A stretch of DNA of 64,000 bases from Sphaerolaimus hirsutus (lineage: Eukaryota > Nematoda > Chromadorea > Monhysterida > Sphaerolaimidae), in the NCBI GenBank assembly GCA_964036195.1, contig OZ038458.1, positions 1,488,001-1,552,000 of the forward strand, in the 5' to 3' direction. Below, in pieces: positions 10,001 to 62,865 of the stretch (position 1 is its first letter; each line of letters starts with the position of its first letter). The position numbers and the translations under genes were made by a program. The notes beneath the pieces are model-generated. The model did not search any database. It saw only the letters and a program-made list of their open reading frames with translations, and was not told the DNA's origin.

Positions 10001-13000
10001 TTTAAAGATATTTTTTAATTATTTTTGGGGGGTTGGGTTATTAAGTGTCACTTCAAAGTGTCAAGAATTGCCTTCAGTTCAAACATTGTGTGGACGATAG
10101 AATTGATGGTAAATGTCCGTGGAGAGAGTCCAGAACGAATCAGGAGTCATTTTACATCATCTTGCCCAGATGCTGTAAAATCAAATGTAAAAAAATGTCA
10201 TGCACTGTGTCCAAAGTCATGTAAAATGTGACCCTGACCGTGAAAAATAAAGGTGCATTTTACATGACTTTTGATACTATGCATGACATTTGACATTTTA
10301 CAGGACATTTTGTAGTGTCTGGGAGCGGCACCAAGTTAATAGAATCAGCTTGAACATGCACTGATGCCGAGATAATGTATGTGGAACATGAAAAAGTGAA
10401 ACTTTCCACGCGGATGTGTAATTTTACACTAATTTGGACTTGTGTGTTTGGAATAGAATGTGTTTGTTGCACATGTAAAATCGATCTGCTGTGAGAATGC
10501 TTGATCTGCTCGCTTGAAGAGCACGTTTTGGCCTTTTGCCAATTTATTTCAACAGTACAGCTTACGTGTTGAAAAAGTATGCCATGCTTCTGTATTATAT
10601 TGCCTGTCCTATATTTTTTTAACCTCTGCAACAGGCATAAATATGAGATTACACATTCATTTCTTCCCCAATCCCCGCCATATTTACATAGATAAAAATG
10701 TCTGTTTCCCGCTGCCGGGTTTATTTTTGATATTGAATTTGCGGTCGCCGGTCGATGCAAACAACAGCTGCGACGGGCGCGCTGCATTTGCTTAATTGCT
10801 CCACTTGCCGCTCTCCGACGCCAATCATGTATTATACTGTATACCGTATTTCCTCGAAATACCCCCCGGGGGGGTGATTGTTTCATAGTGGTCCCGAGAG
10901 GGGGGGTTAAACGAGGGGGGGTATTTCGAGGGGGGGGGTATTTCGAGGAAATGCGGTATGTTCGAATAAAGCCCCCGGGGAACTTGCATCACGTTGGAAA
11001 AGTCTGTTAGGTGTCATTTGTGAGGTCACACGCCTATAAATTGACTTCTCCTATGACTTTTTACCGGTATGGGTTCTTAACTTGCCACGTATAGGTTTTT
11101 GCTTCTTCACTTGCGGAATTGACCCCAAGTCTGCCATAAGTGACCTTCTGCGAAAATTGGTGCATTTTTGGTACTTTTTGGCTCTCACCACAATGTGCCT
11201 ACACCAGGGTTGGCAAAATCTCAGAAAAAAAATAAATAAAATAAAATGGAATATTCAAGAATAAAATAAAATAAAACGGAAAATTTAAGAATAAAAATAA
11301 AAATTGTATAAAAATTCGAATTTTTGTAAATTTTTTGTAAAATTGTATAAAAATTCGTATTTTTGTAAAATTGTATAAAAATTCATATTGTAAAATTTTG
11401 TCTCATTGCTTGAGTCTCTACCTGTTTTTTCATGGATCTGGGGGCAGTCCCAAGCATTGTAAAGTGTCAAATCTCATGTAAAATGTCATGCAAAGTGTCA
11501 ATTGTCATGACAAATGTAAAGTAAAGTGTAAATTGTCATGACATGTAAAAATTAAAGTATCAATTGTCAAGCAAATTGTGTTCAAATCTCATGTTTTATT
11601 TCAAAATCTTATGTTTTGTATCCAAATTATGTTGTTGTTGACTTATGTAAACATTTGGATACAAAAACATAAGATTTGGATATAAAAAATACTATGGATA
11701 CAAAAACACAAGATTTCGATACACAATTTACACTTTGCATGACATTTGTCATGACAATTGCCACTGTGCTTGAAATTTTACATGACACTTGACATTTTGC
11801 ATGACAATTGATACTTTACTTTACATTTGTCATGACAATTGACACTTTGCATGACATTTTACAAATGTGCCAAGCACACTCCAGTAGTCCTTCTACTGAA
11901 AATGCAAACCATTCTTATCAATAATTGTAACTTTACACTTGCAGCTAGCTAACAATACATACTGCATGCAACTTTTGAAAAGAAAGGGTAAAATTTGTCA
12001 CAGGTTTTTCATGTATAGGTCTAATTATAACATTTTTCTGGCCTTGCATACATGTTTCTGATTTTTTGTAAAATTTTTGTAAAATTTTTGTAAAATGTGT
12101 CATTTTATTTTATTAATGACTTTTGGGAATAAAATAAAATAAAATAAAATGAAACAAGAATAAAATAAAAATAAAATAAAATTTTAGTACAATTTTACTA
12201 AAATGAATTTTTATAAAACCAACCCTGGCCTACACACACTAGTTTTCACCGTGACTCGTGTGAAAACTGAATTGGCGACATGGCGACATTCAGCCTGGTG
12301 GCAATCCCAAGCCCTGTAAAGTGTAAAGTAAAGTGTCAAATGTAAAGTCAAATGCAAAGTAAAGTGTCAATTGTCATGCAAATTCCAGTAAAAAAATCTT
12401 TTCTTTTTTGTTTTGATTGACACTTTACTTTGCATTTGACTTTACATTTGACACTTTACTTTACACTTTACAGGGCTTGGGATTGCCCCCAGCTCTTATT
12501 GTATGCTATCTATGTTTTAGTTTTCAAATTTTTTAATTTTAACTATTATTAATTTAAATTCAAATTTAATTTAAATTAAATCATTCAACCGTGTTCATTA
12601 ATTTGCATTTTAAAAAATTTCAGTTTTCACACGAAGTCACGGTGAAAACTAGTGTGTGTAGGCACAATATCGTAATTCTTTAATAATCCGCCCGCGTTTA
12701 ATAATATTGCACGTGTGAGATGAGATTGGAAACATAAATACTCAAAAAAGGGGAAAAAGCTCAATCTCAGTGCTCAGAGATGGAAATATGCCTGCAATTG
12801 ACCACACTGTGACTGTCAGTGTCAGATCGACCGAAAGATTTATAAGAATACATCACTAATACGGATGTGAACCCACACATGTGAACCCACGCTTTCAAAA
12901 ACTCCAAAAAAGCGTGTCCACAAATTTCGTACCCACTTTATTTTGTACCTAGGTATGCTATTTTCATTATACTTTTACTTTCATATTTATTATTACTTCT

Positions 13001-25000: not shown

Positions 25001-28000
25001 ATTTTGCATAATATAATTAAATGAAGGTAATCTCAGAAAATCTCTCAAAAAGGAATCTCAATTAAATCTTGTTGTGGATGTATTTTCTTGATTTCGGTGA
25101 ATAACAATCGGGTAGGAATTTCAAGGAAACATTAAAATTCGTAAAGCCTTTATTCGAAGATTTATGGTACGCAGAGTCTACGTAATAAATATATCTATAT
25201 TTCACTTCTACTTGTTGCTGAATGTGCCTACACACACTAGTTGACGCGGCAGCAATTGATGTCAGTTGACGAGAGAATTTTCAATTGAGAGTGTCTCAAA
25301 ATGTAAATTGTCAGTGAACTCATTCGAATAAACGATTTAATAAAGATTATCAAAATAATCAAATAGTTGAGAGGTACATGGCGCTGCTCACACTAGTTTA
25401 CTGCTTGTAAACAAAAAATTGGGTAAACTTTGAATGGCATCCGAGTTTACTGGAATTAGGTGTACGTCAACAGTTATGCTACGATTACAGCTCAACGTAA
25501 AATTCCAGCGTAAAATTCCATCGCAAGATTGATTACATGAAAGTGGATGATGATACAGGTCTGCAATTTTTCATGGACAATATGTTTAACAATACCTTCA
25601 CTGTCACCAAGGGTCATCGTCCACGGTCACTTCTATTTGATTGTGAAAATTCAAAAATTTCGATTTTACGTTAAAATTTTACGCCAGCTGAAGAAAAGTC
25701 AATTCTACGCCAGGTGATTGCATGCAATGACATAGCGTAAAATTGCATTTTCTTCAGCTGGCGTAAAATTTCAACGTAAAATCGAAACTTTTGAATTTTC
25801 ACAATCAAATAGCATGACCGTGGACCCGAAAGTAATGAAATGAAGGTATTGATAAACATATTGTCCATGAAAAATTGCAGACCCGTATCATCATCCACTT
25901 TCATGTAATCAATTTTGGAATTTTACGTCGAGCTGTAATCATAGCATTACAGAAAACTCATTCCAGCTTATCTTTTAGATCACTAAATTTGTGTAATTTC
26001 ATTGGCAAGTGCGTGCAGCGACAGTTTCACCCACTTCCAATCAAAACCCACCAGTCAACTGGATCAATTGACGGCGCGTCAACTAGCGCCTGTATGCACC
26101 GTGTCCTTGTGCACCCGAGCGCCGCATGGCGCGCCTTCGGTTAGCCGCGGGGGCGGGGCATCGCAGCCGCGGCTCAGACGCGTCGCCTCCATGGGCGCGT
26201 CGATGAGCGACAGCCGCAGGTGCCGCGGCCGCACCCTGTAAAGTGTAAAGGCGAGTGTGGAATGTCACGTCAAATGACACTCAAATTTGTCAATCGTCAT
26301 GCAAAGTGTCAAAATTTCACAAAATCAAAAAGAAATCTTTCCTTTTTTTGGTTGACATTTGACATTTGACAATTTACGGGGTGCGGGACTGCGCCCAGGA
26401 CGCCCAAGGGCATGGACGCGGCAACGTGCCGCCTGCGCAGCGTGGACGACTGCGGCGGCGCCAAGGACAAGCCGCGCAGCCACGTCACTTTCGCAGTGCC
26501 GCATGTCAGGCGCAGGTAGATTGTGTGGTCGAGGGTGGCAAAGAAAGAATTTTGGCATTTTGTCAATTTTTTGGAGCTGTCGAATTTCGTAGCGCTCCAG
26601 AAAAAAACCCTGTTTATTTAGTGGTCTAGTTTTTCACATATAATTAGAATTCGTTTCAGGTTAAGAAGATTCGAAAAATCAATTTATTCCAAAAATTACT
26701 TATCTTTATAATATTCATGCATAAAAATTTTAAAACTTTTTCGGACACTTTGGCATCATTAGGTGCAGCTTTTAGTTCATCATTTTCTCGCATGCGAGTG
26801 ATTATATTCTGCTGTCCGCACGCTATGCCTTTTTCTGACGGTAGCGCTCCATCATGACGTCATCGTTAATAAAATCAAAATTCTTCAAAAAAAAGAAAAA
26901 ATGTTTCGGGAAAAAAACATTCATCGCTTGTAAGTTTTTCTCTTTGAAATATTTTTTTTGAAGTGCGTGCATAAGTATTGCTGCTCGCGGGTTATCGACA
27001 AAGACATAAGTAATTTTGGGCGCATACTTTGCGGTCCGCCGAGCATATCCGTTAATTGTCGCCAAGACGATGTCGTCATGGCAACCGATTAGCTAATGTG
27101 ACGGGCGCACGCCACGCGACACCTTCACCTGGGCACAATTCCTTCACTTGACATTAAGTGACAAATTACACATAAGAACAGACATTAAAAATGCTGCGTG
27201 AAGGGAAGGGTGACAAATAATGACAAATAGTGACAAGTGATGTGTCAATTGACTAGTAATAATAACACAGTTTCACATTATGATAGTTGCAACTCCCAGA
27301 ACCTGTAAAACGCTTTGCAAAATGTCAAATGTCATGCAAAGTGGCAAAACTGATGTAGAATTCTTTATAAATTGTTCATTTTTATTGGTCATTTGACATT
27401 TTACAGTGTCCCGGTGTGGCTTAAGTACTTCCACATTTACATTTACCAGTTCGAGAATTTTGAAACTTCATCTACATATCACTTGACATCCCAAGCCTTT
27501 ACTCAAGTGCTCACAGAAAATTTTGACCATTCCCCAAAACATGTCACTTGACACTTGCCATGACTGACCACTGGCACCAGTGCATGAGATTCCATTCCAT
27601 CACACTGCAACATGCATCCATACAACGTGCGTATGTGTGTGCTTCAATATGAACTCATAAACAAGTAAGCCGACAAGTTTGACCTAGATATTTGGCATAG
27701 CGGCAGTGACCTCGAGTTGAGAAATAAATTTAAAAAAAAGAAGTTTTTTTACCGCGCTGCGGGCAGTATTTTTCTTGGCTGATTCGGGCGACATGTCGTC
27801 CATCATAATGAACGATTCATTTGGATTCTATCAACTCGTGTTGCGCAAACACGCCTGCAGGTTCTGGTGCTTTAACATAAATTCTGAAGCAACCCCCCCC
27901 TGCCACTGGTACGCAGGTCCCGCACTCTGTATAAAATGTCAGGTAGAAAGTCGTGTAAAAAGCCATGTAAAATGTAATGTAGAAAGTCATGTAAATTACA

Positions 28001-31000
28001 TTCACAGCAAAAAATAGGTTCGTGAAGTGTGTGGAAGCGGGCTGGATGTGCGTGAAGCGTCCTCTGTGCAGACACTTCCACACACTTCACCACACATCAC
28101 AAAGTTTTTCGAGATTGTTCGTTAAGTGTCTTCCAGACGCTTCACCTATCATCACGGCAACCGAAGTTCATGAAGTGCACTTCACTAACTATTACAGCAT
28201 ACTTTGCATGGTTCGTGAAGTGCCGTGAAGTGCCAACCAGCGTTTCACAACGTCGGGAGTGTCGACATAAGACACTTCACGATGCTTCACGACGCATCAC
28301 ACACCCATTTTTTGCTGTGATTACATTTAGCAGATTTGCGTAACACTTTGCGGAGTGCGGGACCACCGCTGGCAGGGTTTTCTCACTGGGCTAGCTTGGG
28401 GTGTTAGGATTTACTGTGTACTGTTTCGGGAAGCCACACAAATTTTTTGTAACATTTGTGGTAAACTATCATGCAAAAGTAATTTTACCGAGCACTTTTC
28501 ATTCTATACGTCAATATAGATTTGCACCGATAAATGTTTCATAACACAGCAAAAAATGAATCCGTGAAGCGTGTGGAAGCGGGCTGGAGCGCGTGAAGCG
28601 GCGCGCTTCCACACGCTTCCACACACTTTCCTTGCGTATACATGTGTGTGGGAGCGCCATATAAGGAAGCGTGAAGTGGCTTCACGCAGATTTTCGTGAT
28701 GTGTGTGGAAGCGCTGGCGTGCTGCGTGAAGCGTCGGGAAGTGTCGGCGTGAAGACACTTCCCGACGCTTCACCGCGCATCCACACACCAATTTTTTGCT
28801 GTGTAACATTTTACAGGGTCTACGAGTCGTGCAGACATAACGACCCAGAGTCCCAACACTGACCTCACACTTTAACCATTATAAAAAAAAAATACTCCTT
28901 GCAGACTGCGCTACGTGCTGCACCAGTTGAACAGGGGAGAACTAGATGTGGAAGATTTAAAAAGGAACATCGAATATGCTGCGCTTGTGCTCGAGACTGC
29001 GTATACTGATGAGACCAGGTGGGTTAAGGGGAGGGGTGCTTGGGTACATAAGTTTTTTTTATTGGGACATAAGTTTTTTAGATGTTTAGGTGGATTGTTT
29101 TGAAGGTTCGGTTGCATTTGAATGTTTACTGTTAAGTGGTCAGTTTTTACACTGAGGGTAGGAAAAGCGCCGGCCAGGTAGAATTTTTTCATCGTCCGAC
29201 GGAGTTTCTCATTTAGGTTGCATTGATTGCTAAATTTCCGTGTGGATAAATAATTGGTTTAATTGCATTCCCGAAGTGATAATTTTTTTGCACATGTAAA
29301 AAAATAGTAGAATAATTAGCTTTGTTGGTGATTTTGAAGGGTAGGCTCTTTTTGACTTAAAGCGCCACTGCGCCAATCGTCATTGGCGCCACAACGGCAT
29401 GGCTAAGCTAAAAGCCAAAGGCCAGAGCTAACTCCAGAAAATTTCAGGAATATAACTTCTGGAAAACTCAATTCGAGGTAGGCAAAAAATTCACTCGCTT
29501 TGTGGCGCTTTTGTGTCACTGCACTCGTCGGACGTAACGTTTTTTTAAAGTAGTGTTTTTTGATAAACGTAATGCATTTACAAAATAAATTATGTTTTTG
29601 CGACTTTATTTTACAAGTTTTTATGCTGGGCTGCTTTTGGAGTAGTGATCTAAAAAGCGTCGGCATTTTGGCGCGAAGCTCCTATGGCGCCATAGCAAAA
29701 TGGCGCCATGGAGGTTTTACATCGCTATTTTAGACGGGAGTGCGCTACGATAAGATTTTTTCGCTATTGTTTTTGCATCTATTTACGTATACCATGGTGT
29801 TTTTGCTTTGGCGTTAGTGTCAAGCGCTTTTGTTTCTGGCGCCGTTAATATAACCAGGCGCAGGTAGATGGTCCCTGGTGCTTTTCTGCCCCAAGCGCGA
29901 GGGTAAAAAAGCGCCAGCGCTAGGGCGCTTTGACTTGAGTGCGCCCTACGTGCGCCTTACGCGACACCGAAAGCGTTCGCCGTTCAGGCGGCTGTGCGAC
30001 GAGGACGACGACCTGGCCGAGGCGACTGCGGAGGACGTGCCCGACGAGGTGCGCGAGTGGCTGGCGGCCACGTTCACCCGCCAGGCGGCCAACAAGCGGC
30101 CCACGCCCAAGTTCAAGTCCGTCGCCAACGCCATCCGCATGGGCGTCAAGTTCGACAGGATCTTCCGCAAGAGCACCACCGTGCTCGCGCCCATCCCGCC
30201 GGAGATTATGGGCGCGCTTACGGTCCGTTTTCGCTGTTTTGATGGGGACTTTTTTGGACGTTTTGGGGGTTGGGGTAGTGGGTACCTGAATACAATGGGG
30301 TTGGGAACCCCACCCGACACGAACCCGATACCTAAATAGTACCCACACAATCCGAATGAATTTTTATTTTGTTAAATTTTTATACCACAATCTCGTATAA
30401 AATATATTCGGACAAAAAAATTTTACAGGGGCAATGCAATGTCAAGTGGGATTGCCTAGTGCACACTAAAATTTCTGGCAAGGTGCCATTAAATATTATA
30501 TGTGTATTTATATCTTTCCACACCAAATGTAGTTTTCCATACGTTCTCCAAGAGAATTCCGCAAATGGACAAATATTAAAGAAAGTGATTGGTGATAATT
30601 GAAGTTATGAGTTAAGTTGCCTAAGTAACAAGCGGGTGATAAGTGACAAGTATTGTCATTTACACGTCCACTTGTGTGTCGTGTCTTAAAGGATCAGTTC
30701 ACCAATCACGTGCCTTTCGACATAAGATCTGACTTATCTTATCAAAACCTGTCTTTATTATCTATTTGTCAAGGCGTCGCATGCCGACTAGGTACTAGGT
30801 ACGTTACTCGGCGGACATGATACTCTGACTTTGCACTGATTTATGTCTCGTGTTGGAAGAGTGCCAATGATTATAAAATCATGCGATTTCCGTAAAAAGA
30901 TGAAAAAATTCATCGATGTGAATATCTCAATGAACAACATTATACCAACAATAAATTTTGTCATCTTTTTTGAAACTCGCACGCGTTAACCATCGTTGGC

Positions 31001-34000
31001 ACACTTCCAGCGGGAACCACGCGTGCAAGGTGTAAAGTAACCGGAGTATAGGTAGAAAGAAAGTTTCTAGAAAAGTGGGAGTCAGGTCAGAACTTACAAC
31101 ACGAGTTTCTTGTCTCTCATAAATTTACTGGTCACTGGAATCACCACTTATAACCTTCTGTGCCACTCTGCATTTTCACTTGCCATTTGTCCACTTGCAG
31201 GATTGCCACCAAATGTGTTCTCAACAACATTTCCAAGTGTTTCATTGCCTCCGGCCAAACCTAAAAAGTATAATACCGTATTTCCTCGAAATACCCCTCG
31301 AAATACCCCCCCTCAAAATGGCGACAATGAAATAATTACCCACCCCCTCGAAATACCCCTCCTCGAAATACCCCCCCGTTTAACCACCCCTCAAAATTCT
31401 CACTCTAAAACAATCACCCCCCGGGGGGTATTTCGAGGAAATACGGTCGGTACATGTGAAAGCCGGAACCAAAATTAAAATGCGACAAAAAAAACATTTT
31501 GCAGCGTTTCGGGGAATACGACTTCAGTCCGTTCGAACTAAACGAAGCTACAGATGGGCACGCTCTGAAATATTGCGGATTTCATCTGTTCAATTTGTTT
31601 GGATTTCTCGACCAGTACAGGGTGAGTGCACACTTTTATTTACATTGATATCTACCATAATAAATACCATACCATAACAAAATTCGGTAAACTCATAAAT
31701 CAACTTTGAATGGAATTTAAGTTAACTTGAATTGGGTGTCCGTCGACTGCAGTTGACGGAGAGTGAAAATAGCTCATTTCAGAATCCTCAAATGCGTTTA
31801 ACGCTGATTTTTAGGTTTACTATGTTTTTAAATTCATTAGTAAACTAGTGGGTGCAGCGAGAGTGTATATTATTTTACGCACAGGTAATATGAGTTTTTA
31901 TTTACAGTTTGGCTCATGTCAGAGATCGGTATGTTCTTTTTCAAAATTGTAAATAGTAGTAGATTGAACTTACTACAAAAGTTCAATCAACTACTACAAA
32001 ATGGAGTTACCTACATATTTATATTTTCCTCAGTTTGCCCACAATGGATGCATGTTTATTTGTTCAATAAATTTGTCTGGTGCCAATTCCTTGCCAATAC
32101 TTGAAGAAGATTAGAAACTGAAATGCGTTCACGGCTGATTCATGATTTCACTATATTTTTTGAAATTTCAATGGTAAATTACCGTATTTCCTCGAATTAC
32201 CGCCCGGGGGTTTATTTTTTCAGAGTGGACATTTTGAGGGGGGGGGGGGGGGTTAAACGAGGGGGGGTTATTATTTCGCCAGAATTTTTTTGAAATCCCA
32301 GTACTAAATCGTTGTTTGTAACGTACACAGACGTTGTAAAATGCAATGAAAACCACCATTTATAAGACTCTGTAGACTTATATAAATATATAGACTTTAT
32401 AAACCTGTTCTTACATAACACACTCATTGTTTTTAACGTGTGTTCTGCGTTTCCCGGAGCTTTCGTCATCTACCGTATTTCCTCGAAATACCCCCCGGGG
32501 GGTGATTGTTTCATAGTGGTCCCGGGGGGGGGGGGTTAAACGATGGGGGGGTATTATTTCGCCATAAATTTTTTCAAATCCTAGTACAAAATCGTCGTTT
32601 GTGATGTACACATGGGTAGAAAAATGCATCAATAACTGACATGTACAGACTCCTGTAGACTAATAGTAGTACGTAGATGGTATAAACACTGTTCTAACGT
32701 GATTCCGACATTGTTTTAACGTGTGTTCTGCACTACGCAGAACACAAACTGCAGTATTTGTCATGTACGTTCTCTTTACACTCAATCTGGGGGGGTATTT
32801 CGAGGGGTGATTGTTTCATAGTGGTCTCGAGAGGGGGGGGGGGTTAAACGAGAGGGGGGTATTTCGAGGGGGGGTATTTCGAGGAAATACGGTATGTTCT
32901 CTATAAACTGAAATTAGGGGGTAGTTCGAGGGGGGTTTATAAAATCATAGTGTCCATTTTGAGGGGGGTATTTCGAGGCGGGGGGGGGGAATTCGAGGAA
33001 ATAAGGTAGTGTGTGTGCAGCGACTGTATCGTATTTCTTCTTATAATACATAGAAGGGTTTACCTATATTTACCTCTAATGGCTATACACACTACTTTAC
33101 GACTGGTATACTAAAAATTTATGGAACTGTTAAATCTGATTTGAACGTAATTTTAATATTTATACAAATGCATTCAAAACCGATTTATGAATATACTAAA
33201 TCACTGAGTAGGACTACTAAACCTGAACGCATGGCAGGTACAATGGCAAGCACTGGACGCGTTCATGCTGGCGCTGGAGGCGGGCTACTCGAAGCACAAC
33301 AACCCCTACCACAACCTGGTGCCAGTCCCAGACCCTGTAAAACGCCCTGTAAAGTGTCAAATGTCATGCAAAGTGTCAAAAGTCATGGAAAATGCCCTGC
33401 AAAATGGCAACCGAGTTGCCATTTTGCAGGGCATTTTCCATGACTTTTGACACTTTGCATGACATTTGACACTTTACAGGGCGTTTTACAGGGTCTGGGA
33501 GTGCCCCCTGGTGCACGCGTGCGACGTGGCGCAAACCAGCGCCTGGATGCTCACGCAGACCGGCTTCGCGGTGCGTTTTTTTGGGGGGCTTTTGCGCTCA
33601 CTGAATTGAGAAGGAGCTGGGACAACACAGATTTGAAGATTTGTGCCAAATTCTGCAAGCAATGCATGTCCAATGGGCTTGCTCGCTGCCCATCGTAAAG
33701 CTCCCAAATGTTGAGAAAATGTGTAAGATTTTCCACCACTGCCCACAAAATATATTTATGGGAGCAGTAGCCTTTCCACAAACTGCATGTGTACAGGAAC
33801 CAAAAAAAACCCCAGGAATAAGTGCAGTAAACAAGTGGACTTCTTCCACAACAATTTTTTAAAAATTCCAACAATAATCCCTATCAACAAATCCCTGTGA
33901 GGTTTTCAGTTTGCGCAATTCATGTACTACTCAAGTTTTATAAAAAGTCCCCATAATGGTCTTACCGACTTTCTTTCAGGATATTTTCACAAAAAGTGTG

Positions 34001-37000
34001 GACTTGAAAAAAGGGACAAGTGACAGCGAACTAAAATTTAGAAAATGGACGGAAATGTGGACACCAATTCTAGACGCTCATCTTTCCATGCTCAATCTTC
34101 GAACTTTTGGACTTATCGACCTTTAAAAGTGGATAATTCGTTTGTGATCATTCAAAACAGCTCGACCCATTGCCCAGAACTCTCTGTCCGACCTGGAGTG
34201 CTACGCGGTGATCTTCGCGGCGCTGATCCACGACTTCGAGCACACTGGCCACACGAACAACTTCCACGTGCAGTCGGGGTAAGTCGCGCAACTCGGCTCG
34301 TGTGCATGGCAGAGTTGTTAAAATACCGGTATTTTTGGAAAGTGTAAGTGTAAGTGTAAATACACTTTCCAAATTTTGGGTATGGATACCAAAAGTGTAA
34401 GGTATTTTAAAAATACCTAGGAAAGTGTAAAAAAAGTGTAAGTGTAAAATTTTTTTTAGATAGCTCTTACTGTTGAGCATTAGAAAACACCGCTGTTCTC
34501 ACCTTTAGATCCCTTTATTTATCATTTTCATGCATTATTTCACATTTTACAGCCTTTTATGAAACATTTCAGACTGTAACAAATACTGTAGTGGTATGAA
34601 GTTCCCTAATAATGGCACTTTTTCAGTGTTGATATTTTATTGCTTAAGCAATGCGATACACACTGTTTAAATGCAAGAATGGACATGCAGCAAATGTCAA
34701 TGCAAAAGTTGACTCTGTGTCCTGCTGGTGAATTTCCATTGATCTTGTCCTTTTTACAAAAGTATGATGAAACTGTAGAATACCATGAGTACTGATCAAA
34801 GGTTGTAGATCAAATGCTAGTTTGTACATTTGCCATACTTTTTTACATTCAATGCATTTTTTGTACATGACCCTATTTTATGCTTTCTCAAAAGCATAAA
34901 ACAGCGCCATCTGAAAGAAAAAAATACACTTTCTGTACCCGGGTATTTTGCCCAGGAAAGTGTAAAAAAGCGTATGGGTATTTTATGAAAGTGTAAGTGT
35001 AAATATAAATACCCATTTACCCGGGTATTTCGGGTAATTGTAAATACACTTTCGCAACTCTGGTGCATGGTTAGCAGAATCTTAGGAAAAAATAAAAATA
35101 AAATGGAAAATTGAAGAAGAAAAAATAAAATAAAATTTTTATACAAATTTACTACAATTTTAGTAAAAATAATATTTCTAAAACCAACCCTGCTCATGTG
35201 CAACTTGCCTCCCACCTGCACTCCGCCCACTGCACGCCGTGCATTTCTCTGAAGGAAACACTCCAGCATTCAAAAAATCAAAATGATGGTTTGAACGTTT
35301 CAGAAAAAAACTTTCGTCTCTTGTACGTGACTCCGCCTTTTTCTTCTGATTTTCGCGTGCATAAGTACTGTGTTCGCACGTCATCGACTATAAGACATAA
35401 GTAATTTCGGACGCACACTTCCGCGGTCGGCCAAGTAAATCACTTAGCAGTTAGCAGTGGCAACTTTCTACCGCAGGTCAGAGTTTGCGCTGCTGTACAA
35501 CGACCGCTCGGTGCTCGAAAATCACCACGTTTCGTCCTGTTTTCGATTGGCTAGGGAACCCGATAAATTGCTTTTTCCCGCATTCACAAGGGAACAGTAC
35601 AGGTATCCTTTAAATTTTATTTTATTTTTTATTTTTGGGTATTGCATTGTCTTGGGTATTTTTGGGTATTTCATTCAGTATTTGTTTATGTATTGTTTTC
35701 ATGGGCCAAAGATACATAAGTTTACAGGTTGCATCGAGTGTGAAGACATGTCGTAAAGCTTATGTTAGCCAAGTGAAGTTGTGTTGCAAATATCTCTGTC
35801 GTTCAACGCATTTGAGTTTAAAATAATAAGTTATTTTTATCATCATCAATTTCAGTTGACAGCTCATTCCGGTAAACTCAAATGTTTTACGAAGATGATT
35901 AATGTGTTTTGAAAATTTATGTTGGAAACTAGTATGTGTAGAATCTTTTGTACACATTCTCTGATAGCCTTACACTCTCGTTGTCACTTGACAACTTGCA
36001 GAATTCATTGAAAATATGTACCTGAAATTTTACGGTGCCCGAACAATCGGCCCGCCCGACAAAATGCTTTGGGAAAATCAAGTCTATCAATTTCTAAATA
36101 CCCGCAGGGAATTCCGAAACATCGTTATCGATATCGTGCTGGCAACGGACATGTCGACCCATTTCGTACAAGTCAAAGCCATGAAGAATATGCTGACACT
36201 GCCCGAAGGGTGAGCTGAACGAGTATAAATCTAATAATTGTTAATTTAATTATTCTTTCTGACAGATTTACCGAGATTATAAAATACATATTATATTTTC
36301 TAAAAATCATCCATATTCGCAATGCTACGGGCCGAGCTCATTCAAATTCACTCCTACCTCGGGGGACTCAATTACATAATTGTTAAAACGTCTTTTCTCG
36401 ATAATTCCGTATACTCGAGTACTGCGTAAATACGTTTACATTCACTTTCAGTGCTTTTAGCAACACTGCTCAATCAGGGGTCTCCAAGATTTTGGCCCTC
36501 GCGGGGGCTGGATAGATAGCAAATCGCAAATCGGTTAAGAAGGCAGAAAGGGGAAAAAATCGCTAATAATCAGTTAAAAGTAGCCAAAAGTAGCTTTAAA
36601 ATGGCTCAAAATAGGTATAAAACCATGTATATAGCCGGAAAGCACGATTTTGAAGGTGAAAAACTATAAAAAGGTGTGAAAATTAGTGATTTTGAGCGAA
36701 AATTGAGGCAAAATTTCTCAAAAACCACTCAAGATAGATAGATAGCTGAGCGATTTGGGGGGGTCTTTTGGGGTAGTAGCCAAAAATTTTGCCTCGGGGT
36801 AGATAGATAGCAGAGCGGCCTCCGGGATAGATAGATAGCTGGCCGATTTGGGGGGGGGGCAGCCCCCCCCCAGCCCCCCCCCCTAGGAGACCCCTGTGCT
36901 CAATTGAAACCCCCCACCATAACCCTACCATAACCCGCCAGCATCGACAAGAACAAAGCCATGTGCCTGATAGTGCACGCGTGCGACATCTCGCACCCCA

Positions 37001-37714
37001 CGAAGCCGTTCGAGCTGCACGAGCGCTGGACCTCCCAGCTGCTGGAGGAGTTCTTCAGGCAGGGCGATTTGGAGGCGTCCATGGGTCTGCCCTACTCGCC
37101 CCTCTGCGATAGGACCGCCGTGCATGTAGCCGAGAGTCAGATTGGTGCGTGGCGGGTGTTTTGCGGTGTAGGGGTTGGTAATGTGAAATGTCATGTAAAA
37201 TGCCATATAAAATTCCATGTATTTAACATGTATTTGAAGTGCCGTGTAAAGTGTCAAATGTCATGTAAAAGGTGGAGCTTGTAAAATAAATAAATTACCT
37301 GGTATTTACAATTTTATGACGAGAGAGTTTTTCACAGTTTACATTTTACGTGCCATATTAAAGTTAATAGGACTGGCCCAAGATCGCAGTACTTACCACC
37401 TACCATATAATCCACTTTAAATAAATAAATATATCCTCGATTAGTTATGCTGGGGTATTTTTTATTCTTTTTTTAAGGAGGGTAACTATTCAAGGGCAAA
37501 TGTTCTCAAGGGGAACTTCTCATTTGGCTGGCAGGGGGAACTATTCAATGCATGGCGAACTATGGTAATCATGGAATCGTGTAGATCATGCACGCGCCAA
37601 ATAACCCCCAATCCACCACAGGCTTCATAGACTTCATAGTCGAGCCCACCATGTCGGTGTGCGGCGAGATGATCACCAAAATGGTGGAACCCCTCGTGTC
37701 CATGCCCGCCTCCG
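6993..37714 (+). CDS. PDE1: Calmodulin-dependent-type cyclic nucleotide phosphodiesterase (PDE1), 3' end missing
   Basis: This class I phosphodiesterase hydrolyses cAMP and cGMP; PDE1 enzymes are cytosolic and activated by Ca2+/calmodulin. Fifteen exons chain in phase to 617 codons plus one base. The PDE1 signature before the catalytic domain is clear (RGELDVEDLKRNIEYAA, AYTDETRRL, EVREWLAATFTR). Catalytic motifs follow in order: NPYHNL, VHACDVAQT, IHDFEHTGHTNN, LYNDRSVLENHHVS, LATDMSTHF, HACDISHPTK, SPLCDR and ESQIGFIDFIVEP. These include the metal-binding His and Asp positions and the invariant Gln that binds the nucleotide. I do not see a convincing calmodulin-binding helix, and the C-terminal tail is not found. 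The first four exons are tentative. The introns carry many transposons, and two or three introns appear to be transposons themselves. Confidence 0.93.
7107..7508. mobile_element. TA-flanked element, TACCCTAAATCCTCGAAT ends
   Basis: The left end TACCCTAAATCCTCGAA and right end TTCGAGGATTTGCGGTA are inverted repeats, with GGGGGAGTTATTCGAGG iterations inside. It is a relative of the abundant TACCGTATTT family and lies in the first tentative PDE1 intron. A similar pair of ends is at about 24912-25172. Confidence 0.65.
7730..7888 (+). CDS. Candidate PDE1 exon 2, Ser/Pro/Thr-rich
   Basis: Acceptor CACCCTACAG, donor GTAAGT, phase 1 to 1. It encodes SGRSCDQASAVAS, then LPASPSPTPSHGTGRTEL, a disordered-type segment. 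Exons 1 and 2 join without a frame break. Long low-complexity N-termini are common in invertebrate PDE1 isoforms, but there is no direct homology here. Confidence 0.45.
8094..8342. mobile_element. TA-MITE, TATACTCGGCGG family, copy 1
   Basis: The ends TATACTCGGCGGACATGAT and AACCGGAGTATA form an imperfect inverted repeat flanked by TA. Conserved inside are TGATTTATGTCTCGTGTTGG and TTCCAGCGGGAACCACG. Sister copies lie at about 20020-20254, 30804-31050 and 57955-58201. No coding capacity. Confidence 0.75.
8639..8825. mobile_element. CTGTAAA-family MITE (same family as the PDE1 intron elements)
   Basis: The left end GGGCAGTCCCAAGCCCTGTA and right end TACAGGGCTTGGGACTG are inverted repeats; the flanks ACACATGG (8631-8638) and GCACATGG (8826-8833) match at 7 of 8 positions. 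The interior repeats AAAGTGTCAAATGTAAAGT-like units. One end is three bases longer than the other, the same asymmetry as in the PDE1 intron element at 33323-33506. Confidence 0.75.
8869..9774. mobile_element. hAT-type element, CAGAGTTG ends, long form
   Basis: Ends CAGAGTTG and CAACTCTG with an exact 8-bp duplication CTATAAAT (8861-8868 and 9775-9782). The terminal parts repeat AAACGTAAACGTAAACG. A CTGTAAA-family element (about 9135-9325) is nested inside. The same composite occurs in inverted orientation at 57659-58825, so this is one family of about 0.9 kb. Short open frames inside do not look like a transposase. Confidence 0.85.
9815..9992 (+). CDS. Candidate PDE1 exon 3
   Basis: Acceptor TACCCTTCAG. 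An open frame with entry phase 1 and exit phase 2 (donor GTTGGT) fits exons at 7888 and 26145 and encodes an Arg-rich segment ending DAPRHRQLAGGRD. A second frame is also open and gives a Ser/Gly-rich peptide (NTPSGTGSGNEGHSAPSG) that looks more natural but does not fit the phases. The exon is plausible; its frame is uncertain. Confidence 0.35.
10842..10958. mobile_element. TACCGTATTT-family MITE, short copy
   Basis: TACCGTATTTCCTCGAAA and TTTCGAGGAAATGCGGTA are inverted ends with a TA boundary; the interior is poly-C and poly-G. This is the most abundant family of the window. Confidence 0.75.
11205..12227. mobile_element. hAT-type element, CAGGGTTGG ends
   Basis: The ends CAGGGTTGGCAAAATCT and AACCAACCCTG are flanked by an exact 8-bp duplication GCCTACAC (11197-11204 and 12228-12235). 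The subterminal sequence is AAATAAAATAAAATGG repeats; a CTGTAAA-type inverted repeat occupies the middle. It inserted next to the end of another element (12228-12661). A rearranged relative lies at about 62170-62685. Confidence 0.85.
12228..12661. mobile_element. Inverted-repeat element, ends GCCTACACACACTAGTTT
   Basis: The left end ACACTAGTTTTCACCGTGAC and right end CACGGTGAAAACTAGTGTG are inverted repeats. A CTGTAAA-family MITE (about 12297-12488) is nested inside; its left end reads GTGGCAATCCCAAGCCC and its right end GGGATTGCCCCCAG. Fragments with the same end occur at about 15195-15240 and 25228-25245. Confidence 0.65.
13437..13769. mobile_element. TACCGTATTT-family element, TTGCTTGAATA variant
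   Basis: The ends TACCGTATTTGCTTGAATAG and TTCAAGCAGATACGGTA are flanked by TA, with poly-C blocks inside each end. The middle (about 13555-13680) is shared with sequence at 49633-49740, which identifies that piece as the other half of an interrupted copy. A solo left end of the family is at about 13136-13200. Confidence 0.7.
14715..15139. mobile_element. TACCGTATTT-family element, 425 bp
   Basis: The ends TACTGTATTTCCTCGAATTA and TTTTGAGGAAATATGGTA carry GGGGGGTATTTTGAGG iterations inside. The interior (AAACCGCCATTCATAACAC, ATGTGTTCTGCGTTTCCCGG) is shared with copies at 32.2-32.9 and 48.4-48.9 kb. A degraded right end lies at about 15600-15655. Confidence 0.7.
15660..16730. other. Gene-free stretch
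   Basis: AT-rich unique-looking sequence inside the long tentative PDE1 intron. I see no exon, RNA gene or well-defined element. The last 120 bases carry imperfect AATAGAAGGGCACC repeats related to sequence near 43860 and 19800. Confidence 0.5.
16743..17139. mobile_element. Transposon ends around a 200-N gap (16868-17067)
   Basis: CAGGGGTCTCCAATGGGGG at 16733 is the left end of the hAT family found whole at 36475-36896. After the gap, sequence to 17139 is the right end of a TACCGTATTT element (TTTCAAGGAAATACGGTA). The gap is 200 N, a fixed-length placeholder, so the real distance is unknown. Confidence 0.6.
17140..20019. other. Gene-free AT-rich stretch, almost free of recognised repeats
   Basis: I see no exon with credible splice sites. 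One ATG frame (18693-19022, plus, 109 codons) contains a Cys cluster (TCHCMGACFDEIGGLGC), but there is no homology I recognise and its composition is like its flanks. The usual MITE families are absent until about 20020. It may be part of a large unrecognised element or plain intron of PDE1. Confidence 0.4.
20020..20254. mobile_element. TA-MITE, TATACTCGGCGG family, copy 2 (diverged)
   Basis: It shares CATGATACTCTGC, TTCCAGCAGGAACCACG and TGGAGTATAAT with the copy at 8094. The left terminus is degraded. Confidence 0.6.
20672..21906 (-). mobile_element. Complete small LTR retroelement (TRIM-like)
   Basis: Two 154-bp direct repeats (20677-20830 and 21748-21901), each with TG...CA ends and nearly identical, are bounded by an exact 5-bp duplication CAGAT (20672-20676 and 21902-21906). 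Read on the minus strand, the LTR at 21901-21748 is followed two bases later by TGGTGAACGAGTACT, a fair primer-binding site, and the other LTR is preceded by the purine tract AGGGGGAAGG (about 20831-20840). The 917-bp interior is too short for gag-pol. This is a terminal-repeat retrotransposon in miniature that must depend on another element for mobility. Confidence 0.8.
21225..21668 (-). CDS. 147-codon repeat-bearing frame inside the LTR element
   Basis: The frame starts at an ATG 80 bases after the presumed 5' LTR and begins MAYIPGKDGKKSYRDTLARA. Its middle is built from a short unit (NFGDAS, RRDAS, HRGDAS) encoded by a 15/60-bp tandem repeat at about 21385-21595. The position is that expected for gag, but no nucleocapsid or capsid motif is visible. 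The repeat is open in several frames, so this may be a non-coding relic. Confidence 0.4.
   Translation of the reverse strand: MAYIPGKDGKKSYRDTLARADAQRISSVHRDASHHGDASNFGDASARRDAPHCGDASNFGDASASRDASHRGDASNFGDASINIVASEYRDASQNGDDPTVGNETDSRETRYQLNDMESSTNTFQWDLTKSPLQNQGLLRIVKLAPF
21972..22402. mobile_element. TACCGTATTA-family element, 431 bp
   Basis: The ends TACCGTATTACCTCGAAATA and TTCGAGGTAATACGGTA have a TA boundary. Its interior has ATACATCATGTACATTGCAT, the uninterrupted version of the site into which the TAGGGTGTC element inserted in the sister copy at 54667-56767. Confidence 0.75.
22403..24910. other. Gene-free stretch
   Basis: AT-rich sequence without a credible exon on either strand. 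At 23690-24400 there is a GC-richer patch with CGGGCAGCCCGAT-like inverted motifs (about 23985-24005 and 24370-24395), probably another degraded element. The overlapping open frames there have no recognisable product. Confidence 0.4.
24912..25172. mobile_element. TA-flanked element, TACCACAAATCCTCGAATAA ends
   Basis: The left end TACCACAAATCCTCGAATAA pairs with the right end TTCGAAGATTTATGGTA. It is a relative of the elements at 7107-7508 and of the TACCGTATTT family. Confidence 0.55.
25481..25960. mobile_element. Foldback element of about 480 bp
   Basis: The two halves are near-complete reverse complements: GATTACAGCTCAACGTAAAA against TTTTACGTCGAGCTGTAATC at the ends, ATGAAAGTGGATGATGATAC against its complement further in, and GCCAGCTGAAGAAAA against TTTTCTTCAGCTGGC at the centre. 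A related end occurs at about 41757-41780. No coding capacity. Confidence 0.65.
26145..26219 (+). CDS. Candidate PDE1 exon 4, with an RRVAS site
   Basis: Acceptor TTCGGTTAG, donor GTGCCG, phase 2 to 2. It encodes RGGGASQPRLRRVASMGASM, including RRVAS, a good fit to a protein kinase A site. PDE1 enzymes are known PKA/CaMKII targets, but this site's use is unknown. An ATG at 26191 could start a shorter isoform. The donor sits at the edge of a CTGTAAA-family transposon. Confidence 0.6.
26220..26398 (+). mobile_element. Intron made of a CTGTAAA-family MITE (introner-like), 179 bp
   Basis: The intron between PDE1 exons 4 and 5 is one transposon from edge to edge. The left side reads GTGCCGCGGCCGCACCCTGT, the right side ACGGGGTGCGGGACTGCGCC followed by CAG at the acceptor. 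The arms are inverted repeats (AAATGACACTCAAATTTGTC-type units inside). The splice points fall at CAG|G on both sides, as expected if target duplication supplied them, though only CAGG of the presumed 8 bp still agrees. Removing it restores phase 2 and an open frame. Confidence 0.65.
26399..26515 (+). CDS. PDE1: PDE1 exon 5
   Basis: Acceptor GCGCCCAG, donor GTAGAT, phase 2 to 2. It encodes TPKGMDAATCRLRSVDDCGG and ends FAVPHVRRR, directly before the conserved N-terminal region. The product resembles the poorly conserved part ahead of the regulatory segment; there is no Trp-containing calmodulin-binding helix in it. Confidence 0.7.
26803..27050. mobile_element. MITE, family ending CGGCGGACCGC, second copy
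   Basis: It shares CGCTCCATCATGACGTCATC and CGCATACTTTGCGGTCCGCC with the element at 4147-4385. It lies in the PDE1 intron 26516-28904. Confidence 0.6.
27926..28365. mobile_element. CTGTAAA-like element interrupted by a second element
   Basis: The left end GCAGGTCCCGCACTCTGTAT and right end GGAGTGCGGGACC are inverted repeats with the TGTCAGGTAGAAAGTC-like interior of the CTGTAAA family. The element at 28003-28319 is inserted in the middle. Here the family lies inside an intron, away from splice sites. Confidence 0.55.
28003..28319. mobile_element. hAT-type element, CACAGCAAAAAAT ends
   Basis: The ends CACAGCAAAAAAT and TTTTTTGCTGTG have an exact 8-bp duplication ATTACATT (27995-28002 and 28320-28327). 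The interior repeats GTGAAGTGTGTGGAAGC-like motifs in both orientations. A second copy, without a clear duplication, lies at 28543-28803. Confidence 0.8.
28543..28803. mobile_element. hAT-type element, CACAGCAAAAAAT ends, second copy
   Basis: CACAGCAAAAAATGAATCC and CCAATTTTTTGCTGTG are inverted ends; the interior has GAAGCGTGTGGAAGCGGGC repeats. It lies about 100 bases before PDE1 exon 6. Confidence 0.65.
28905..29018 (+). CDS. PDE1: PDE1 exon 6, conserved N-terminal regulatory segment
   Basis: Acceptor CTCCTTGCAG, donor GTGGGT, phase 2 to 2. It encodes LRYVLHQLNRGELDVEDLK, then RNIEYAALVLETAYTDETR. This block is diagnostic of PDE1 (other PDE families lack it) and lies in the calmodulin-regulated inhibitory region. 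Confidence 0.93.
29019..29987. other. PDE1 intron with GGCGCC-rich repeat
   Basis: The 969-bp intron contains scattered GGCGCCA and AGCGCC motifs (about 29360-29960) like the interiors of the TAGTGATGG elements, but I could not find matching terminal repeats. No other feature is seen. Confidence 0.5.
29988..30222 (+). CDS. PDE1: PDE1 exon 7, junction to the catalytic domain
   Basis: Acceptor CGTTCAG, entry phase 2, exit phase 0, 235 nt. It encodes RLCDEDDDLAEA, then VPDEVREWLAATFTR and PKFKSVANAIRMGVKFDRIF, ending in PPEIMGALT. The donor GTCCGT is weak, but the next exon continues the alignment in phase. Confidence 0.92.
30804..31050. mobile_element. TA-MITE, TATACTCGGCGG family, copy 3
   Basis: The ends TTACTCGGCGGACATGATAC and AACCGGAGTATA enclose the family interior. 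It lies in PDE1 intron 30223-31504. Confidence 0.7.
31274..31447. mobile_element. TACCGTATTT-family MITE in a PDE1 intron
   Basis: TACCGTATTTCCTCGAAATA and TATTTCGAGGAAATACGGT are inverted ends with C-rich interior. It ends only 57 bases before the exon 8 acceptor. Confidence 0.75.
31505..31621 (+). CDS. PDE1: PDE1 exon 8, start of the catalytic domain
   Basis: Acceptor CATTTTGCAG, donor GTGAGT, phase 0 to 0, 39 codons. It encodes RFGEYDFSPFELNEATDGHA, then LKYCGFHLFNLFGFLDQYR. The FELNEATDGHALKY block aligns with the conserved first helices of PDE1 catalytic domains; the following helix is more diverged. Confidence 0.9.
32180..33008. mobile_element. Nested TACCGTATTT-family elements in a PDE1 intron
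   Basis: An outer copy (TACCGTATTTCCTCGAATTA at 32180 to AATTCGAGGAAATAAGGTA at 33008) contains an inner copy (32471-32894). Both have poly-G tracts and the ACGTGTGTTCTGCGTT interior, so a family member inserted into its own kind. Confidence 0.7.
33238..33318 (+). CDS. PDE1: PDE1 exon 9, ends in the catalytic YHN motif
   Basis: Acceptor CGCATGGCAG, phase 0 to 0, 27 codons. It encodes VQWQALDAFMLALEAGYSK, then HNNPYHNL. The His of PYHN is the presumed general acid of the class I PDE reaction. The donor GTGCCA belongs to the 8-bp target duplication of the transposon that makes up the next intron. Confidence 0.92.
33319..33510 (+). mobile_element. Intron that is one hAT-type MITE plus its target duplication, 192 bp
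   Basis: A palindromic element (33323-33506, ends CAGTCCCAGACCCTGTAAA and TTTACAGGGTCTGGGAGTG) is flanked by an exact 8-bp duplication CCTGGTGC (33315-33322 and 33507-33514). The arms of about 90 bp are nearly perfect complements. Excising the element with one duplication joins PYHNL to VHACDV exactly as PDE1 requires. The intron then runs GTGCC...CCCCTG, i.e. GT to TG ends. A GT-AG alternative ends at 33501 and adds three codons (Cys-Pro-Leu) inside the active-site motif. Read through, the element stops the frame at 33448. Confidence 0.85.
33511..33570 (+). CDS. PDE1: PDE1 exon 10, metal-binding HACDV motif
   Basis: Sixty bases, phase 0 to 0, donor GTGCGT, encoding VHACDVAQTSAWMLTQTGFA. The His of HACDV is a metal ligand in this family. 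The 5' boundary is set by homology and by the transposon edge; the base pair before it is TG, not AG. Confidence 0.9.
34178..34278 (+). CDS. PDE1: PDE1 exon 11, HDFEHTG metal site
   Basis: Acceptor CATTGCCCAG, donor GTAAGT, entry phase 0, exit phase 2. It encodes NSLSDLECYAVIFAALIHDF, then EHTGHTNNFHVQSG. The HD of IHDFEHTG supplies two metal ligands of the HD-type active site. Confidence 0.95.
34310..35062. mobile_element. hAT-type element, CAGAGTTG ends, GTGTAAGTGTAA variant
   Basis: The ends CAGAGTTG and CAACTCTG have an exact 8-bp duplication GTGCATGG (34302-34309 and 35063-35070). The terminal blocks read AAGTGTAAGTGTAAGTG where other copies read AAACGTAAACG. It begins 31 bases after PDE1 exon 11. 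An AAATAAAATGG-rich fragment ending CCAACCCTG (about 35080-35190) follows. Confidence 0.85.
35477..35602 (+). CDS. PDE1: PDE1 exon 12
   Basis: Acceptor CTACCGCAG, donor GTATCC, phase 2 to 2. It encodes SEFALLYNDRSVLENHHVSS, then CFRLAREPDKLLFPAFTREQ. YNDRSVLENHH is near-invariant in PDE1; the segment after it is diverged from vertebrate enzymes. Confidence 0.95.
36108..36209 (+). CDS. PDE1: PDE1 exon 13
   Basis: Acceptor ATACCCGCAG, donor GTGAGC, phase 2 to 2. It encodes EFRNIVIDIVLATDMSTHF, then VQVKAMKNMLTLPE. LATDMSxHF is a conserved catalytic-domain segment. Upstream sequence to 36010 stays open in frame with another AG acceptor, but using it breaks the phase. Confidence 0.95.
36475..36896. 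mobile_element. hAT-type element, CAGGGGTCTCC ends
   Basis: The ends CAGGGGTCTCC and GGAGACCCCTG have an exact 8-bp duplication TGCTCAAT (36467-36474 and 36897-36904). The interior has GGGATAGATAGATAGCTG repeats and poly-G/poly-C blocks. It sits 45 bases before PDE1 exon 14. Related sequence occurs at 16733 and within 61620-62080. Confidence 0.85.
36942..37144 (+). CDS. PDE1: PDE1 exon 14, HACDISHP metal site
   Basis: Acceptor AACCCGCCAG, donor GTGCGT, entry phase 2, exit phase 1, 203 nt. It encodes IDKNKAMCLIVHACDISHPT, then LEEFFRQGDLEASMGLPYSP and LCDRTAVHVAESQI. The Asp of HACDISHP is the last metal ligand; the Gln of ESQIG is the nucleotide-binding glutamine. Confidence 0.96.
37622..37714 (+). 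CDS. PDE1: PDE1 exon 15, last one found
   Basis: Acceptor TCCACCACAG, phase 1 to 1. It encodes FIDFIVEPTMSVCGEMITK, then MVEPLVSMPAS. It lacks the C-terminal helices and tail. The donor GTGCCA opens directly into a CTGTAAA-family element end. No later exon was found; it may lie in or beyond the 38.4-kb gap. Confidence 0.94.
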
Positions 37715-37866
37715 GTGCCACTCCCAAACCCTGTAAAACGCCCTGTAAAGTGGCAAATGTCATACAAAGTGTCTAAAGTCGCGTAAAATGCCCCGTAAAA
37801 TCCGTAAAACCTCCGTTCGCCATTTCGCAGGGAGTTTTCCATGACTTTCAACGGCGAATAACCGCA
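37715..37866 (+). mobile_element. CTGTAAA-family element beginning at the PDE1 exon 15 donor
   Basis: The intron starts GTGCCACTCCCAAACCCTGT, matching the left edge of the introner-like intron at 33319. A partial right arm (GCAGGGAGTTTTCCATGACT) follows, then another transposon interrupts. The outer right end and acceptor are not visible. Confidence 0.6.

Positions 37867-52260: not shown

Positions 52261-62865
<10,605 letters not shown>

Follow-up and report, generated by a model that had tools for sequence, protein, structure and literature searches.

The window, the 64,000-nucleotide stretch of the Sphaerolaimus hirsutus genome analysed here (C14:1488001-1552000 of a 348-Mb assembly in 762 contigs), carries a PDE1 gene on its plus strand, with model exons near 28905, 29989, 31504, 33238, 34177, 35479, 36109, 36943 and 37624 and a putative first exon near 26192. 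The homology search returned 3,851 homologues, of which the 120 listed were used; among these, nematode PDE1 proteins come nearest to the 460-residue joined protein (Plectus sambesii, 76%; Steinernema, 74-75%). Of the best 61 of the 120, 60 carry nematode names and one has no name, which marks the host as a nematode, though one without a close relative among these matches. GT-AG borders fit all nine of the other introns in the model, the exon ends having been picked with the GT-AG rule in mind; a homology search with the peptide of the first exon gave no convincing match.

The exon near 33238 is interrupted in its active-site motif. Its left half (33238-33318, delimited by sequence and homologue alignment) ends with PYHNL and the codon CTG, its right half (33511-33570, VHACDVAQTSAWMLTQTGFA, followed by GTGCGT) resumes with VHACDV, and between them stands a 189-bp element at 33319-33507, GTGCCAGTCCCAGACCC...GGGTCTGGGAGTGCCCC, that forms a palindrome with arms of 98 nt, 96% complementary, and a gap of 3 nt. 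As the first-pass annotation had seen, CCTGGTGC is present on both sides, at 33315-33322 and again at 33507-33514; its further claim that excision joins PYHNL to VHACDV to the base also held, since removal of 192 nt yields NPYHNLVHACDV with the codons exactly restored. At this point 118 of the 119 alignable homologues (from the 120 listed) are ungapped, and the alignment with a solved PDE1B structure runs through the junction without a gap. If the PDE1 frame is instead read through, it meets an in-frame stop inside the element. A Pfam search with the left half-exon extended in frame through the start of the element found no match, and an Rfam search found none at the gathering threshold. The RNA of 33319-33510 folds as a single stem of -169.2 kcal/mol (z = -25.9; equally good shuffles, 0 of 200), with GUGC and CCCCCUG unpaired at its ends.

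The repeat lets the 192-nt excision slide through nine registers, none of which has GT-AG, GC-AG or AT-AC borders; the closest to canonical is GT-TG, giving a putative phase 0 intron of 192 nt at 33319-33510 that is placed by exact restoration of the reading frame. The first-pass annotation had passed over the missing terminal AG. The donor GTGCCA is weak when set against the donor consensus. Human TG acceptors are described only as alternatives with an AG within 28 nt and never as the sole site, in the part of the survey concerned with them (PMC2374985), so a constitutive TG acceptor would be unusual.

The element belongs to a large family. Exact matches to the left end number 3,286 genome-wide, 1,522 after CTG and 1,764 after CAG; the reversed controls gave 0. 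Sister copies were drawn from the 40 highest-ranking matches to the window copy, which is itself one of the 40, and from 50 CTG-left and 33 CAG-left loci, these last two samples being the first CTG or CAG places in order on one contig, C1 (L043-L072 and L075-L127), with 13 of the CAG-left loci entering the orientation count only. This gave 137 de-duplicated copies with both ends recognised, 102 of which carry CTG or CAG at each end. The end triplets match in 83 of the 102 (CTG/CTG 58, CAG/CAG 25) and are mixed in 19 (CTG/CAG 12, CAG/CTG 7; Fisher 4e-9). Because left and right triplets agree within copies far above expectation, the target duplication is 3-bp CWG, here the CTG at 33316-33318 and 33508-33510, rather than the 8 bp originally proposed. 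Copies typically begin with CWG-GTGCCANTCCCAGACCC and finish with GGGTCTGGGANTGCCCC-CWG; GTGCCA is exact at the left end in 102 of 137 copies, many though not all of which were selected by a pattern containing GTGCCA, and TGCCCC is exact at the right end in 92 of 137. Judged by these sister copies, the GTGC after the left CTG is element sequence and that after the right CTG exon. The triplet is preceded by C in 57% of copies and followed by G in 72%, and in 20 of 88 copies the right triplet has GTG directly behind it; given this flank preference, the 8-bp match of CCTGGTGC is less surprising.

A hAT family with an 8-bp duplication, as first suggested, was considered and rejected: when copies are compared, nothing beyond the CWG triplet is found on both flanks, and the left GTGC belongs to the element. 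The inverted ends (GGGGCA at the right, GTGCCA at the left) are part of an inverted repeat that spans nearly the whole element. By its CWG duplication and its G(T/G)G(C/G)CA ends, both of which the NuwaI group shares, 33319-33507 is best classed as a putative NuwaI/PIF-Harbinger-like MITE.

To place the copies relative to genes we used a codon score trained on the PDE1 exons, including the window copy's own exon. Scores of at least 15 were reached at 37 of 137 copies vs 72 of 852 control sites (p = 9e-9), the controls being random CWG sites in the same loci at least 250 bp from any recognised element; several of the p-values given in this report are nominal, without correction for multiple testing. 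For the counts of acceptors, divergence and retention, a copy was called coding-like if it had an accepted Pfam match, or if its plus score reached 15 or more and exceeded its minus score by 5 or more. Retention would close the reading frame in every one of the 32 coding-like copies.

High-scoring copies were searched against Pfam. The top 48 of the ranked list of 137, less L037, a mirror of a plus copy that appears as a "minus" row in the acceptor listing, and L002, in the PDE1 duplicate described below, left 46 candidates; 40 of these were given to Pfam, the six outside the set being the copy at window position 26217, L044, L063, L049, L016 and L023. For each copy, the best frames from the two strands of the empty site were combined in one query. 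Matches at E <= 0.1 were obtained for 20 of the 40 copies, all in the plus-strand part of the query; CHASE2 (0.095, L099) and nec1 (0.015, L055) were judged to be chance matches and set aside. The accepted matches thus cover 18 of the 40 copies and fall in 15 genes, with E from 2e-19 to 0.06. Every one of them is on the GT-donor strand, although one of the 18, L018, begins with GG. Other copies of the family had been thought to lie outside genes; with accepted matches at 18 of the 40 high-scoring copies searched, this does not apply to the genome. The best Pfam stretch clearly spans the junction in 16 of the 18; it begins at the junction in L018 and lies to one side in L084.

Eleven copies in nine genes lie above Pfam's own cut-off, again all on the GT-donor strand (p = 0.004 for nine genes): Xan_ur_permease (3.8e-15), Cyclin_N (9e-7), CAP (6e-9), PAS (5e-7), EGF_laminin (1e-14), Sterol-sensing (2e-19), LRR_6 (5e-11), and two copies at one locus each for CHGN (3e-13 and 1e-15) and Oscp1 (4e-16 and 2e-18). 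Accepted below the cut-off are seven, namely L098, L018 and five of the nine TG copies (including PDE1): PDEase_I (0.007; the identity of PDE1 is secured by the homologue search), NHL (0.054), zf-C2H2_7 (0.024), zf-C2H2_ZN142 (6e-5), E1_dh (1e-4), and two copies at one locus that match adjoining parts of the Frag1 profile (0.06 and 0.006). The E1_dh copy lies in what we take, by eye, to be a BCKDHA-like gene. At the OSCP1, CHGN and Frag1-like loci (L053, L059, L019) the two copies share the same orientation. Sister copies thus lie, like the PDE1 element, between coding halves of other genes, in agreement with the earlier proposal of introner-like gain from a DNA-transposon MITE in an animal.

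The orientation bias was measured in the C1 samples. At the threshold of 15 the CTG-left copies (n = 43) lie in the plus orientation in 16 cases, minus in 2 and undecided in 1; because unequal target frequencies (the PDE1 exons hold 35 CTG and 26 CAG) confound any orientation test limited to CTG-left copies, CAG-left copies were added, and these (n = 30) gave plus 2, minus 0 and undecided 1, or 4, 0 and 1 at a lower threshold. Both types together at 15 give plus 18, minus 2 and undecided 2 (p = 4e-4), and the bias of the CTG-left copies (16 to 2) persists after the 35:26 triplet ratio is allowed for (p = 0.004). Plus coding-like sequence is found at 16 of 43 CTG-left vs 2 of 30 CAG-left copies (p = 0.005), an excess that the 35:26 triplet use in PDE1 would account for only in part; since CTG-left copies are the commoner in coding-like sequence, TG-type copies are not visibly purged. 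The exceptions in the other orientation are L050 and L102, coding-like by score, and L013, which by eye is SLC22-like, has no Pfam match, lies on the minus strand and is outside the C1 samples. L013, L018 and L035 are probable coding insertions in which the intron would start with GG instead of GT; the genes may be dead, the alleles polymorphic, or the donor of another type.

In the register that restores PDE1, copies at CAG targets have GT-AG borders and copies at CTG targets GT-TG. The 18 accepted Pfam copies divide evenly, nine ending in TG and nine in AG (above the Pfam cut-off, TG 4 and AG 7). Mixed coding-like copies are CTG-left/CAG-right in 6 cases and CAG-left/CTG-right in none, vs 6 and 7 in noncoding-like sequence (p = 0.044), as if TG acceptors were under replacement by AG; the CAG-right share of CTG-left copies showed no significant excess in coding-like sequence (6 of 23 vs 6 of 35, p = 0.51). 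Most copies, 30 of 32 coding-like and 78 of 88 noncoding-like, also have an AG (as in TTTACAG) some 19 nt upstream of the end; its use would add 19 nt and shift the frame. Hairpin strength was tried and discarded as a marker of acceptor type: in the accepted Pfam copies it does not differ, at -0.69 kcal/mol per nt for TG vs -0.67 for AG (p = 1.0). In noncoding-like sequence the TG copies are slightly more stable than the AG copies, at -0.65 vs -0.57 kcal/mol per nt (p = 0.02).

A partial duplicate of PDE1, about 98% identical, lies 2.7 Mb away on the same contig (C14:4201500-4213500; L073, L002, L074). Within the stretch compared it is homologous to window positions 31624-37298, and it includes exons 5-9 and the same insertion. 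Exons 5-9 differ between the two at 8 positions, 7 synonymous and 1 nonsense (exon 7); with transitions weighted double, the probability of at least 7 synonymous changes among 8 is 4e-4 at an expected fraction of 0.25. This pattern shows that at least one PDE1 copy carrying the element has been maintained by purifying selection, and as the duplicate carries a stop and looks dead, only the window PDE1 can be taken as the maintained one. The shared insertion is older than the segmental duplication, since which the copies have diverged by about 2%. The first-pass view that the insertion is recent therefore holds only relatively. Coding-like copies lie on average 7.5% from the consensus and noncoding-like copies 11.9%, which makes the coding-like copies the younger. 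In L002 a second MITE is nested between the exon half and the element, with ends CATAGGCGGCG/CGCCGCCTATG, an 8-bp duplication ACCTGGTG and a hAT-like look.

We consider it likely that the PDE1 feature is an introner, a MITE inserted at a CTG codon and removed as a GT-TG intron so that splicing restores PYHNL-VHACDV. A non-autonomous cut-and-paste DNA transposon would have entered the CTG codon of the active-site exon and duplicated the CTG; the left end of the element, GTGCCA, would bring the 5' splice site, and the duplicated target triplet after the right end (GCCCC-CWG) would become the 3' splice site, so that a CAG insertion makes an ordinary GT-AG intron and a CTG insertion, as in PDE1, a GT-TG intron. 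The long RNA hairpin may bring the ends together and bury internal TTTTACAG sites, leaving GUGC and CCCCCUG unpaired, and the spliceosome would join CTG to GTG. The AG about 19 nt upstream could serve first-step recognition and the TG the joining, with human TG acceptors (PMC2374985) for comparison.

Splicing might instead use an AG that the PDE1 copy carries 9 nt upstream of the end; the intron would then be GT-AG (33319-33501) and in frame, and PDE1 would gain the three residues CPL. We regard this as improbable, because the addition would sit in the YHNxxHA motif, where all but one of the aligned homologues are ungapped, because this AG is absent from 6 of the 9 accepted TG copies and from the partial PDE1 duplicate, and because only 8 of 32 coding-like copies have it, against 44 of 88 noncoding-like ones (p = 0.02). 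Also unlikely is a recent insertion, harmful or polymorphic, that does no more than break PDE1 in the sequenced animal. The closely matched arms and the younger age of coding-like copies would fit such an event, but the insertion predates the segmental duplication, the codon changes that followed are mostly synonymous, and the family is enriched in coding-like sequence, mostly in one orientation.

That orientation bias also bears on two readings in which the spliceosome plays no part. Hairpin-dependent, non-spliceosomal removal, as discussed for euglenid non-conventional introns or Amoebophrya introners, would account for a border that is not GT-AG and for a very stable hairpin that juxtaposes the ends; a near-symmetric hairpin, however, gives no reason for a bias in which all 18 accepted copies share one orientation, and some of the copies that stand between coding halves have hairpins of lesser stability (L059@1501, L019@612, L030 and L098, at -0.42 to -0.53 kcal/mol per nt), which leaves this reading very unlikely. 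PIF/Harbinger relatives are known for clean excision, and somatic excision at the DNA level could in principle restore the PDE1 exon before transcription; it would leave the bias unaccounted for, and the assembly keeps thousands of unexcised copies, so we give it almost no weight.

Beyond the PDE1 introner itself, we are evenly divided on a broader proposal: that one introner family makes either CAG or CTG targets into working 3' splice sites, yielding GT-AG and constitutive GT-TG introns in deeply conserved genes, with the hairpin hiding internal AGs, only the GTGCCA end making a donor, and TG drifting to AG.

Introners, the logic of element donor and duplication acceptor, and GT-TG introners are already known from algae. 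A 2022 report (PMC9860276) counts 175 genomes with introners among 3,325; the animals that it names, in the part used here, are copepods, and the word stem "nematod" is absent from its main text. An introner family set out there shares with the PDE1 family a repeated element, a target duplication, an element donor and a duplication acceptor, but has a 4-bp duplication and is said to lack inverted repeats, whereas the present family has 3-bp CWG, inverted ends, a long hairpin, a nematode host and an AG or TG acceptor set by the target. The Micromonas introners IE-B and IE-D (Verhelst et al. 2013, PMC3879977) are repeated introns with GT-TG borders, as here, yet they are of 25 and 6 members, very variable in length and from a green alga, and the relevant section of that account neither explains TG by a target triplet nor describes a CAG/CTG pair of types within one family. 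NuwaI elements (PHIS superfamily, PIF/Harbinger kin; PMC4482050) likewise make a 5'-CWG-3' target duplication in animals; their inverted repeats are 12-61 bp and usually start with GGG, like the right end GGGGCA here, but the left end GTGCCA of the PDE1 family, unlike NuwaI as described there, would make a splice donor, and nematodes are not among the hosts that the portion of the paper concerned names.

The introners of Amoebophrya (PMC7789003) resemble the present family in their inverted repeats, direct repeats of 3-5 nt and many non-canonical borders; as far as that description extends, their borders are highly varied and inverted repeats specific to a family were not detected, whereas here one family has fixed ends and two acceptor types. 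Fritillaria borealis (PMC13326754), like the PDE1 host, is an animal with non-canonical 3' intron ends, of which it has many, and its authors raise the possibility that these stem from introner transposons whose splice sites are weak; according to the sections concerned, the 3' ends there are AC, AT and others, and U2AF genes are duplicated, whereas here the end is TG and the other PDE1 introns fit GT-AG. A search of the titles and opening abstract lines of the open-access literature, subscription papers and preprints lying outside its scope, found, among the papers listed, no report of such a family in a nematode. Two features look novel, the nematode host and an acceptor set by the target.

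Recent intron gains of animals are seldom observed together with their source, and a paper on intron gain in nematodes discusses, in the part pertinent here, why source sequences were not found (PMC9169325); the present genome offers thousands of copies, CAG and CTG insertions, and genes with two copies. Such near-identical introns allow spliceosome handling of GT-TG to be measured beside GT-AG, as well as the maturing of TG into AG.

The window holds further traces of the family. A diverged member with a 176-bp element and CAG on both sides lies at 26217-26398 (plus strand), within the putative first PDE1 exon, and would form a GT-AG intron (26220-26398); we read it as plus, although the codon score alone favours the other strand. 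The left half of another member is found at 37712-37850 on the plus strand, at the exon end ...VEPLVSMPASG, its right end not being recognised. Inner arms of the family were matched at 10255-10336, 11458-11863 and 27288-27361, and a 21-bp GC-rich tandem repeat (28.7 copies, 96% matching) occupies 60996-61597.
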